In this document: positions 18,539 to 24,884 of the stretch, piece by piece
Layout of the letters: each line of letters opens with the position of its first letter
How positions within the stretch are numbered: position 1 is the stretch's first letter
Source of the DNA: Actinomycetes bacterium
GTDB lineage: Bacteria > Actinomycetota > Acidimicrobiia > Acidimicrobiales > Bog-793
Assembly (NCBI GenBank): GCA_021798985.1
Contig: JAJZBI010000029.1
Coordinates: 1 to 46,046, forward strand
DNA length: 46,046 nucleotides
Direction: 5' to 3'
The notes under the pieces: generated by a model
Databases searched by the model: none
Told to the model about the DNA's origin: nothing
What the model saw: only the letters and a program-made list of their open reading frames with translations
Translations under genes and position numbers: made by a program

Positions 18539-19038
18539 CGGGCCCCCCGGGTATGGCTGAACTCGCTGCGGGCAAGGCCGATGACGAGGACGACGCAACC
18601 ACAGACGATCGAGGAGTCCGCGACGTTGAAGGTCGGCCAGAAGCCGAGGTGGATGAAGTCGACCACGGCACCGTGGCGACCGCGAAAGAGCCGGTCGGCG
18701 AGGTTGCCGACGGCGCCGCCCAGCACGAGGCCGAGCCCGGTGGCAATGGTGTTGGACGGAGCGCCGCGAAGGAACCAGAAGACGACGACGATCAGGCCGA
18801 TGGCGACGAGGATGATCGGCAGGGTGTCCCCGGTCCCGAGCGAGAAGGCCACGCCCGAGTTGAAGGCGAGCTCAAGGGAGAGCGGGCCGATCAGGTGCAC
18901 CGGGCCAGAGCTCAGGTGGTCGACGGCAAGCGTCTTGGTCACCTGGTCAATGGCGACGATGACGGCGGCCACCGCCAGCGCGATCACCAGCCTCCGGCGC
19001 CGGGCCGACGCCTCGACGACGGGGCCGGGAGCGCTCAA
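18535..19038 (-). CDS. lspA: prolipoprotein signal peptidase (signal peptidase II)
   Basis: An inner-membrane aspartyl protease that cuts lipoprotein signal peptides. The 167 residues contain four membrane helices. The conserved segments are IDQVTK in the first helix, LELAFNSGVAFSL, GGAVGNLADRLFRG with the first catalytic Asp, and FNVADSSI with the second. The start is a TTG at 19038 in a TTGA overlap with the upstream TraR-like gene. This order gives traR-like, lspA, rluD in one unit. The small lipoprotein at 9068 is one candidate client. Confidence 0.9.
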   Translation of the reverse strand: MSAPGPVVEASARRRRLVIALAVAAVIVAIDQVTKTLAVDHLSSGPVHLIGPLSLELAFNSGVAFSLGTGDTLPIILVAIGLIVVVFWFLRGAPSNTIATGLGLVLGGAVGNLADRLFRGRHGAVVDFIHLGFWPTFNVADSSIVCGCVVLVIGLARSEFSHTRGAR

Positions 19039-20162
19039 CGGCGAGAGAGCCCGCCGTTCTTGCAGGCGATGCAGAGGCGGGCGAAGGGCAGCGCCTCGAG
19101 GCGGGGCTTGGTGATGAGCTCGCCGCAGTTCTCGCAGATCCCGTAGGTGCCCTGCTCGATCTTGGCGAGCGCGCGGTCGATCTCCTCGACGGCCGCGAGC
19201 GCCTGGGCCGACAGAGCGAGGTCGCGCTCGCGGTCCACCGTCGTCGTCCCACCCTCGCCGGACTCCTCGTCGAACTGCACGTCGCCCGGCTCGGCCTCGG
19301 CGACGAGCGCCTCCGCCTCCGCGCGCAGCGCGCGCGCCTGCTCGGCGTAGGTGCTGCGCTCGGCGAGCAGCGCCTCACGCTGTTGGGCAAGGAACTCGGT
19401 GTCCTTGGCGTAGGTCTCGCCGCTGCCGGCCCCGCCCTCACCTGCTGAGCGGCCACCGAGACGGCCGCCACCGAGACGGCCGCCGAGGCCTTTCGGCGCC
19501 GGAGGAACTGGCACGGGCTCGGACAAGGCGGAGCTGGCGGGGGCCGCGCCCACCGGAGCGGTGGCTGCCAGCTCGGGCCGGTGCTGGTCCTCGGGGCCTT
19601 CGGCCGGGACGAGCTTCTCCGCGGGCTCTGGGACTGGGGCCTTCTCGGACGCGTGCTGGTCTGCGGCTGCCTTGGCCGGGGCGTGCTGGTCTGCGGCTGC
19701 CTTGGCCGGGGCGTGCTTGTCGGCGGCTGCCTTGGCCGGGGCGTGCTGGTCGGCGGCCGACTTGGCCGCGGCGTGCTTCTCGGGCGCCGCCGCCTTGGCC
19801 GGCGCGTGCTTGTCCGCGGCCGCCTTGGCCGGCGCGTGCTTGTCCGCGGCCGCCTTGGCCGGGGCGTGCTTGTCGGCGGCCGCCTTGGCCGGCGCGTGCT
19901 TGTCCGCGGCGTGCTTCTCGGGCGCGGCCGCCTTGGCCGGCGCGTGCTTGTCCGCGGCGTGCTTGTCGGGCGCCGCCGCCTTGGCCGGCGCGTGCTTGTC
20001 CGCGGCGTGCTTGTCGGCGGCCGCCTTGGCCGGGGCCGCCTTGGCTCCGCTTGCCGTCGCCTTCACCGCCGCGGCCTTCGTGCTCGCCTTGGTGGCGGCC
20101 GCCTTCGACCCGGCAGTCTTCGCCGGGGTCGCGGCGCCGCTCGTGGTGCTGGTGCGAGGCAT
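19035..20162 (-). CDS. DksA/TraR-type zinc-finger protein with long repetitive N-terminal tail
   Basis: The C-terminal 120 residues are a DksA/TraR-type protein: a coiled coil (EFLAQQREALLAERSTYAEQARAL) and a four-cysteine finger with Cys343, 346, 364 and 367 (CENCGELITKPRLEALPFARLCIAC). Such proteins bind RNA polymerase secondary channels or act in general regulation; in actinobacteria the role is poorly known. The first 180 residues are unlike standard DksA: an Ala/Lys/His-rich tail with nine exact HAPAKAA units, resembling histone H1-like or HupB tails. Residues 185-240 are a Pro/Gly/Arg linker. The ATG at 20162 has GAAGGAG upstream, and a TATCGT box lies about 40 bases before the start. 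Confidence 0.85.
   Translation of the reverse strand: MPRTSTTSGAATPAKTAGSKAAATKASTKAAAVKATASGAKAAPAKAAADKHAADKHAPAKAAAPDKHAADKHAPAKAAAPEKHAADKHAPAKAAADKHAPAKAAADKHAPAKAAADKHAPAKAAAPEKHAAAKSAADQHAPAKAAADKHAPAKAAADQHAPAKAAADQHASEKAPVPEPAEKLVPAEGPEDQHRPELAATAPVGAAPASSALSEPVPVPPAPKGLGGRLGGGRLGGRSAGEGGAGSGETYAKDTEFLAQQREALLAERSTYAEQARALRAEAEALVAEAEPGDVQFDEESGEGGTTTVDRERDLALSAQALAAVEEIDRALAKIEQGTYGICENCGELITKPRLEALPFARLCIACKNGGLSRR
19655..20010 (-). repeat. in-frame tandem repeats encoding HAPAKAA units
   Basis: About 12 imperfect copies of a 27-48-base unit run inside the TraR-like gene, nine of them coding exactly HAPAKAA preceded by DK or DQ. The period varies because shorter DKHAA or APEKHAA pieces are inserted. 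Near-identity of neighbouring copies at the DNA level suggests recent slippage and a length that could vary between strains. Confidence 0.85.
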
Positions 20163-20254
20163 CCTTCGGTGGTCTCCTTCCCGAGGAAGTGCGCGACGAT
20201 AGCCGATGACCCTGAACGTCGGCGCGTCAGGGGCCTATTCCCGCGAGCGTCAGC

Positions 20255-20629
20255 TCAGCGCTGGCGACGCCCGTGGAGGTCGCGTCCCCCAACGCTCGCG
20301 CCGGCGCGCTCGATGGCCTCCTCGATCACCCGCGCCACGTGCGCCGGGTCGACCTCGCGGATACGGATGCGCTTGTCCCGGCGCATCTGCCCGCTCACGA
20401 GCTCGATGCGCGACCCGGGGACGTTGAAGAGCTCGGCGACGAGCGCGCACACCGCCGCGTTGGCGCGACCCTGCAACGGCGGCGCCGCCACCTTCACCTT
20501 GAGGGCATCGCCGTGCCGGCCCGTCACGGCGGCCCGGCCGGCACCCGGCTGGACGTGCAGGCGCAGGAGCACGTCGGCGGGCGCGGTGGCGTCGGCGCGC
20601 GCCTCGAGCTCGAACAGTTCTCCCGACAT
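20255..20629 (-). CDS. DUF167 / YggU family protein
   Basis: A 124-residue small alpha/beta protein. The family core is LRLHVQPGAGRAAVTGRHGDALKVKVAAPPLQGRANAAVCALVAELFNVPGSRIELVSG, with the conserved KVKV..PP..G.AN segment. The function is unknown in all bacteria. It is often found near YggT and division genes; here it is 4.3 kb away from yggT, across ileS. The ATG at 20629 is 8 bases after a TACAGT box on the same strand. Confidence 0.85.
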   Translation of the reverse strand: MSGELFELEARADATAPADVLLRLHVQPGAGRAAVTGRHGDALKVKVAAPPLQGRANAAVCALVAELFNVPGSRIELVSGQMRRDKRIRIREVDPAHVARVIEEAIERAGASVGGRDLHGRRQR

Positions 20630-20636
20630 GCCGGAA

Positions 20637-20643
20637 TACTGTA
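20637..20643. promoter_or_regulatory. shared divergent -10 element for the DUF167 gene and ileS
   Basis: The plus strand has TACTGT (20637-20642) 6 bases before the ileS ATG. The minus strand has TACAGT (20643-20638) 8 bases before the DUF167 ATG. The two boxes overlap by five bases in the near-symmetric heptamer TACTGTA. RNA started from either would be leaderless or nearly so. No good -35 is evident on either side. Confidence 0.5.
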
Positions 20644-20648
20644 GGGCA

Positions 20649-23924
<3,276 letters not shown>

Positions 23925-23935
23925 GCCGAGGACGC

Positions 23936-23950
23936 CGCGCCCCGGGCGCG
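23936..23950. terminator. small hairpin between convergent ileS and wag31
   Basis: CGCGCC and GGCGCG form a 6-base-pair stem with a 3-base loop in the 27-base gap between convergent genes. It is short but almost entirely G and C. Confidence 0.35.
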
Positions 23951-23951
23951 C

Positions 23952-24884
23952 TCAGGCACTCAGGCCACCGCCGGAGGGTCCCGGCAAGCCCCCGGGGCCG
24001 GGGAGGTCCGGAGGGTCGGGCACGAGGCCGAGGTCGCGCCCGTGCGCCCAGCGCTGCCACAGCTCCTCGGCGGGTGCCTCCTCGCCCTCGCCAGGCAGCG
24101 GCCGCACCTTGCCCGTGCTCGGCCCGGGGAAGCTGCCGCCGTACGCGCTGGCGGCGTCCTCGGCGATCTCCGCCTCGACGTCCGGCAGTGCCGTGCCCTG
24201 CTCGGCGCCAAGCGCCGGGCCGCCGGCCGGCGGGGCCGCCTGATCGAGTTCGGCCGGATCGGCCGGATTGTCGCTGCGCCGGTCGCCGGTGCTCGGCTCG
24301 GCGCGGCGGCCACCCAGCTGCTCAGAGACCGTGAGCGTGTCGCCGACCAGCTGGAGGGCGGAGGAGAGCGCCTCGGTGAGCCGCGCCCGCTCGCTCTCGA
24401 CGAGGCGAGCCAGGGTCGCCACCTCGCCCTCGAGGCGCTCGCGCTCGGTCCCGAGCTGGGCGATGCGGGTGTGCAGGTCCTGCTCGGCGTCGTCGCGGGT
24501 CCGGCGGGCGTGCTCCTCGGCCTGGCCGACGAGCGTCTCGGCCTCCCCGCGCGCCTCGGCGAGGATCTTTCCTGCTTCCTCGCGGGCCTCGGCGATGGCG
24601 AGGTCCGCGGTGCGCTGGGCGAGCACGAGGGTGCGGCGGATGGCGTCGTCGTCGAGCGCGTACTCATTGGGCGCGGGTGGCGGCGCGGGCGGAGGCGGCG
24701 GGGCGACCTCGGGCGGTGCCTGCTCGGCACGTGCCGCCCGCTCAGTGAGGCGCGCCATCTCGGCGCGCAGCTCATCGACGGCGACGGCGACCTTCTCGAG
24801 GAACTCGTCGACCTCGTCGGTGTCATAGCCGCGCAGGCGGTCCCGGAACTCGACCTCGCGCAGGACCTTGCCGGAGATCTCCAT
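23952..24884 (-). CDS. wag31: DivIVA/Wag31 polar growth and division-site protein
   Basis: A 310-residue coiled-coil protein that marks negatively curved membrane at poles and septa and recruits wall synthesis. The N-terminal lipid-binding domain reads REVEFRDRLRGYDTDEVDEFLEKV (residues 10-33). A Pro-rich insert (residues 61-72) follows, then long coiled coil from about 75 to 190. The last 110 residues are acidic, Pro/Gly-rich and probably disordered. It closes the division cluster after sepF and yggT, the usual actinobacterial order. A TAGCAT box 8 bases before the ATG suggests its own leaderless transcript. Confidence 0.88.
   Translation of the reverse strand: MEISGKVLREVEFRDRLRGYDTDEVDEFLEKVAVAVDELRAEMARLTERAARAEQAPPEVAPPPPPAPPPAPNEYALDDDAIRRTLVLAQRTADLAIAEAREEAGKILAEARGEAETLVGQAEEHARRTRDDAEQDLHTRIAQLGTERERLEGEVATLARLVESERARLTEALSSALQLVGDTLTVSEQLGGRRAEPSTGDRRSDNPADPAELDQAAPPAGGPALGAEQGTALPDVEAEIAEDAASAYGGSFPGPSTGKVRPLPGEGEEAPAEELWQRWAHGRDLGLVPDPPDLPGPGGLPGPSGGGLSA

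Follow-up and report, generated by a model that had tools for sequence, protein, structure and literature searches.

A predicted compact bidirectional promoter in the 19 bases between ileS and a DUF167 gene of an Acidimicrobiales genome

The 19 bases between ileS and a divergent DUF167 gene probably form one compact bidirectional promoter (rough probability 0.83, judged from comparison of related loci). The heptamer TACTGTA within them very probably starts transcription both ways, towards the essential ileS gene on one side and a small conserved gene on the other. Comparison gives good support to the reading of overlapping -10 boxes used in two directions; the mirrored letter that the second direction would require is kept in the short-gap relatives examined, and this points to selection for two-way firing.

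The locus and its heptamer

The window (the whole stretch of DNA analysed, 46,046 nucleotides) is contig 50 of a host genome of 3.76 Mb in 71 contigs. Among the matches listed, the nearest named relatives of its isoleucine--tRNA ligase (IleRS) are assemblies from metagenomes that carry the labels Actinomycetes, Acidimicrobiaceae or Acidimicrobiales. On the evidence of this single protein, the host is most likely an uncultured Acidimicrobiales bacterium. Loci in which a divergent DUF167 gene starts 18-20 bases from ileS are called compact pairs below; letters of the heptamer are numbered 1 to 7 along the ileS strand, and N6 stands for six bases between a box and a start codon. The features are as follows:

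20649-23924, plus strand: ileS, isoleucine--tRNA ligase, 1091 aa (P0001 matches TIGR00392 at 819.4 bits; cut-off 621.4)
20255-20629, minus strand: DUF167 (YggU-like) gene, 124 aa (P0002 matches TIGR00251 at 86.1 bits; cut-off 35)
20630-20648, no strand: intergenic region of 19 bases separating the start codons, predicted to serve as the entire core promoter of both genes (gap 18-20 in 31 compact pairs)
20637-20643, no strand: shared heptamer TACTGTA (TANNNTA), predicted overlapping -10 boxes (T1, A2, T6 and A7 in 31/31 compact pairs)
20637-20642, plus strand: predicted -10 box TACTGT for ileS (TANNNT at N6-8 before ileS in 96/113 loci)
20638-20643, minus strand: predicted -10 box TACAGT for the DUF167 gene (A7, the mirror letter, goes with the short gap)
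20649, plus strand: predicted ileS transcription start at the A of ATG, leaderless (from the N6 spacing)
20629-20631, minus strand: predicted DUF167 transcription start, 20631 at canonical spacing or 20629 if strictly leaderless (from the spacing of 8)

Positions 20627-20651 read CATGCCGGAATACTGTAGGGCAATG; the DUF167 ATG starts at 20629 on the minus strand and the ileS ATG at 20649 on the plus strand. Six bases separate the plus hexamer TACTGT from the ileS ATG, and eight separate the minus hexamer TACAGT (20643-20638) from the DUF167 ATG. The first-pass annotation had described a 19-base gap in which TACTGTA offers a -10 on either strand, 6 and 8 bases from the two starts; this layout is confirmed.

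The ileS frame is open for more than 1 kb upstream of the start (19581-23924, plus strand), antisense to DUF167 and to a DksA-like gene; automatic gene callers may set the ileS start too far upstream. The DksA/TraR-like gene (assigned by eye; minus strand, 19035-20162) adjoins DUF167 and has a long N-terminal tail with repeated ADKHAPAKAA-like units. Lys/Ala-rich tails are seen in G010 and L133 too.

TACTGT and TACAGT match the E. coli consensus TATAAT at three and four of six positions, respectively (own count); both conform to the actinobacterial TANNNT. A promoter of E. coli type with a -35 box was rejected, as a sigma-70 scan requiring a -35 returned no sites in 19000-24500. In high-GC Actinobacteria, TANNNT lies about 12 bp before leaderless starts, according to the available text of PMC3160421; in M. 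tuberculosis it occurs at 73% of primary starts, without a -35 consensus, according to that of PMC3898074. The ileS box fits the leaderless arrangement, with its first T 12 bp before the ATG; for DUF167 this distance is 14 bp.

The same arrangement is also enriched in a sample of the host genome. In its 266 kb (7% of the genome, window included), TANNNT-N6 precedes ATG or GTG codons followed by at least 80 open codons 24 times, compared with a mean of 4.4 per offset at offsets 12-39; the counts at N7 and N8 are 11 and 9. In 180 kb of a related genome (G021), the N6 count is 15 versus 1.9.

Relatives were drawn from 60 genomes, the host included. Of these, 58 were used (G020 and G044, with weak matches only, were left out); together with 80 named loci (80 kept of 182) they gave 138 entries, and removal of three with less than 150 bases upstream and 22 duplicates left 113 distinct ileS upstream regions. 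TANNNT at N6-8 is present before ileS in 96 of the 113 and absent in 17, the ileS start being allowed to shift upstream by as many as 14 codons to an ATG or GTG in frame; DUF167 lies upstream on the opposite strand in 36. From these counts, a putative leaderless-type ileS promoter occurs widely in the group, whether DUF167 is present or not. A leaderless ileS, as proposed in the first-pass annotation, is supported by this frequency together with the N6 peak in the host sample. The DUF167 gene is plausibly nearly leaderless, with a predicted leader of 0-2 bases; the minus spacer is 8 in 27 of the 31 compact pairs.

At 71% GC, TANNNTA is expected by chance with p = 0.00044 at a fixed place and p = 0.0057 anywhere in 19 bases. 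A looser pattern in the host genome is not above its control (2 places with 3 strand matches; control 4); it is therefore conservation, not the single copy, that raises the heptamer above chance. The strict architecture CAT-N7-TANNNTA-N5-ATG occurs at 20 places in 22 whole genomes of the family, which were picked for carrying the compact pair; 17 of these places are the ileS/DUF167 locus, three are elsewhere (G003, G004 and G032), and the reversed control gives two matches in the same genomes. The strict pattern has no match at the locus in G001, G003, G009, G011 and G021; all five use GTG as the start on one side, and the gap in G021 is also 18.

Conservation of the mirror letter in compact pairs

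The set was enlarged by a search across the order, in which DUF167 was found in at least 148 of 397 genomes. Forty places outside the family were fetched, and ileS is divergent from DUF167 in 16 of them. With five further new divergent loci this made 21, of which 11 were added after curation by hand. Five others are identical over 180 bases to loci already in the set (G079, G099, G101, G123 and G297), and five were left out: G063 and G267 have TACTGT at N5, while G080, G095 and G155 have no qualifying plus box. Start codons and frames were checked in G080 and in the five added compact loci.

Position 7 varies with the distance to the neighbouring gene. Where ileS has TANNNT 6-8 bases ahead of its start, A7 occurs in 31/31 loci with a DUF167 start 18-20 bases off and in 14/76 of the others (Fisher p 2e-16, with relatives counted as if independent). 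In the first set the counts were 26/26 for DUF167 starts 17-22 bases off and 12/70 for the others. Non-compact loci mostly have G at this position (G 48, A 14, T 11, C 3). The 31 compact pairs fall in nine family codes, if L114 is placed via the sequence-identical G123. Rows were selected partly on T1, A2 and T6, which leaves A7 as the one unbiased observation; since A2 and T6 are already needed by ileS, A7 is also the sole extra letter required when the box is read from the other strand. The proposal that both genes share overlapping -10 boxes is supported by these A7 counts.

The compact heptamers are TACTGTA (19), TACTCTA (7), TATCGTA (3), TATTCTA (1) and TAGAGTA (1). The letters between the two TA pairs thus differ (CTG 19, CTC 7, TCG 3, TTC 1, AGA 1), while A7 is constant; fixed outer letters and free middle ones are the pattern that a -10 box would require. 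The gap is 19 in 24 pairs, 20 in four and 18 in three. Plus spacers of 6, 7 and 8 occur in 26, 4 and 1 pairs, and minus spacers of 8, 7 and 6 in 27, 3 and 1. In G041 the heptamer is shifted by two bases (spacers 8 and 6), and the gap is still 19.

A quick tree of IleRS (125 rows) requires 10 changes in compactness among the 106 scored rows. Eight independent contrasts lie on well-supported branches; on average 6.1 agree with the tie between A7 and the compact gap, none opposes it and 1.9 show no difference (sign test on eight contrasts: median p 0.03, range 0.008-0.125). The first set, with 95 rows, offered five usable contrasts, of which a mean of three agreed and none opposed (median p 0.25); the set was enlarged after this result was seen. 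The tree carries warnings for one long branch (G095, unscored) and for uneven letter make-up. Its support for the tie is real but moderate.

Eleven of the A7 non-compact loci have no DUF167 upstream (G006, G007, G012, G015, G023, G026, G031, G055, L118, L135 and L161), and the same eleven have no minus frame of at least 40 codons beginning 18-20 bases before ileS. The other three have a divergent DUF167 farther off, at about 63 (G047), 72 (G303) and 73 (G112) bases. A7 alone is therefore no proof of divergent use. Minus open reading frames of 98 and 97 aa begin 18 bases before ileS in L150 and L177, where base 7 is G; inspection of their translations by eye suggests that they are spurious. If either is a real gene, it is evidence against the A7 rule.

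G080 is a compact pair with a gap of 21 that, from its sequence, seems to have lost the ileS box: the DUF167 box TAGAGT is present at N6, and ileS has no TANNNT at N6-8. At nine wide-gap loci, a DUF167 start candidate with TANNNT at N7-9 is present in five and absent in G043, G047, L134 and L144; DUF167 has its own TANNNT in G048 (gap 39, N8), L145 (194, N8), L174 (55, N8) and G037 (38, N9). Nine further loci comprise G095, G155 and G267 with TANNNT at N7-9, G296 without, and five with no candidate start.

Alternative readings of the 19 bases

The promoter might serve ileS only, as a one-way leaderless promoter; DUF167 would then rely on an opposite-strand promoter within ileS, or be hardly transcribed, and A7 would reflect a lineage base preference after the -10 box. 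TANNNT at N6-8 is indeed kept by ileS whether or not DUF167 adjoins, and A7 is found in 14/76 non-compact loci and in 6/24 N6 leaderless candidates of the host sample. This is nevertheless unlikely: A7 is invariant in the 31 compact pairs across several families, no tree contrast opposes the tie to the compact gap, and the commonest base 7 in non-compact loci is G (48/76).

Two other readings fare worse. If the 19 bases were coding, ileS would truly start at the ATG of CATG (20628-20630, in frame), its product would begin MPEYCRAM..., and the conservation would be that of a protein. An in-frame ATG 21 bases upstream does exist in 20/31 compact pairs, and the ileS frame is open far upstream. 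The upstream ATG is missing in the other 11, and one of these, G041, has a stop codon in frame 9 bases ahead of the start, which makes an ileS extension unlikely. The heptamer is nonetheless kept in all 11, as it is in the four pairs with a gap of 20. Exchange of TACTGTA and TACTCTA would also swap Cys and Ser, yet TA...TA is fixed. A coding extension is thus very improbable. An operator, in which TACTGTA is a near-palindromic repressor site controlling both genes, would suit a near-palindrome between two divergent genes; it is also very improbable, as palindromy is lost in 12 of the 31 pairs (every heptamer other than TACTGTA) and the fixed letters are those required by a -10 box. Seven base pairs is also short for an operator.

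A T-box leader of ileS (RF00230) was rejected as well. The first-pass annotation had argued that the gap excludes one, and this stands: 19 bases are too few, there is no leader to hold a T-box before the window ileS, and Rfam at gathering scores gives no matches in the window. Twenty loci scanned with Rfam at the same threshold likewise give none. Two distant members of the order have sub-threshold T-box matches next to ileS, L080 (922-1100, 37.9 bits) and L254 (1561-1736, 32.8 bits; gathering score 93); from these, ileS control seems to vary among lineages.

Predicted operation and related promoters

In the two-way reading preferred here, the housekeeping sigma factor would read TANNNTA as TANNNT on either strand. 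The form can be read both ways since the -11A of either orientation pairs with the -7T of the opposite one; A7 gives the -12T of the second box. RNA polymerase would load in one of the two orientations, one at a time. A rightward start at or beside 20649 would yield a leaderless ileS mRNA, presumably translated as such, and a leftward start at about 20631-20629 would yield a DUF167 mRNA whose leader is 0-2 bases long. Neither a -35 box nor a ribosome-binding site would be needed.

Symmetric -10 bidirectional promoters have been described by Warman, Grainger and co-workers; in the available text of these papers, starts are 7-25 bp apart, most often 18, and the T at -18 of each start comes from the +1 A of the other (PMC10268837, PMC12825309). 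The ileS/DUF167 locus resembles this class in that one -10 would be read on both strands, -7T and -11A are paired, and the predicted starts (20649 and 20631) are 18 bp apart, or 20 if DUF167 is strictly leaderless. The reciprocity of -7T and -11A is present as A20638 and T20642 in the window and as A2 and T6 in 31/31 compact pairs (rows selected for a plus TANNNT). The -18T would be supplied for DUF167 by A20649; for ileS the column is C20631, and T stands there in 9/31 pairs. Unlike the published examples, as far as the available text of these sources describes them, both predicted transcripts are mRNAs starting no more than two bases from their start codons, the form is TANNNTA, and one locus is conserved across families.

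The locus likewise resembles the leaderless TANNNT genes of PMC3160421 and PMC3898074 in having TANNNT, no -35 consensus and a start codon at the predicted start; unlike those genes, as described in the available text, one box would serve two genes. The latter source calls closely juxtaposed divergent promoters common in M. tuberculosis and includes prpD (Rv1130)/Rv1129c, a divergent pair with both starts mapped to start codons (PMC3898074). ileS and DUF167 would be similar divergent neighbours, leaderless and nearly leaderless as predicted from sequence. Judged by titles and abstract openings among the matches listed, no work joins symmetric -10 boxes with leaderless divergent neighbours. Each is already known; the present locus is a new, deeply conserved case.

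Polymerase cannot hold both orientations at once, and interference arises above an activity threshold, according to the available text of PMC12825309. By extension from that source, weak basal firing would leave both genes independently expressed and strong ileS activation would lower DUF167. A stronger version is rather unlikely: that across the order a two-way leaderless promoter of 19 bp with a single heptamer is conserved because it works as an obligate switch, firing in one orientation at a time with IleRS inverse to DUF167, that it replaces the T-box leader which other members seem to use, and that base 7 sets directionality (A two-way, G one-way).

Bidirectional promoters were originally found by start-site mapping; here the second-direction letter tracks neighbour distance. 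Among the loci examined it is invariant where the neighbour starts no more than 20 bases off, and elsewhere that position is mostly G. The ortholog pair thus lets one ask, as a natural experiment, whether -10 symmetry is under selection or only tolerated. It also yields a prediction for a single base (A7 to G) and a case in which the core promoter of an essential gene would fit in 19 bp.

Two further observations concern this arrangement. The IleRS proteins of G059, G177 and G202 lie across a long branch from that of the host (G000; G059 is 41% identical to P0001); despite this divergence, their ileS genes adjoin the same DUF167 gene and have the same compact promoter. It looks as though ileS had been exchanged, or had diverged, while the promoter stayed as it was. 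In the host genome, a second TANNNTA (TACGCTA) lies between divergent start codons at G000:C22:28607-28633 (L096; L188 near 8621), flanked by divergent open frames of 378 and 351 codons.
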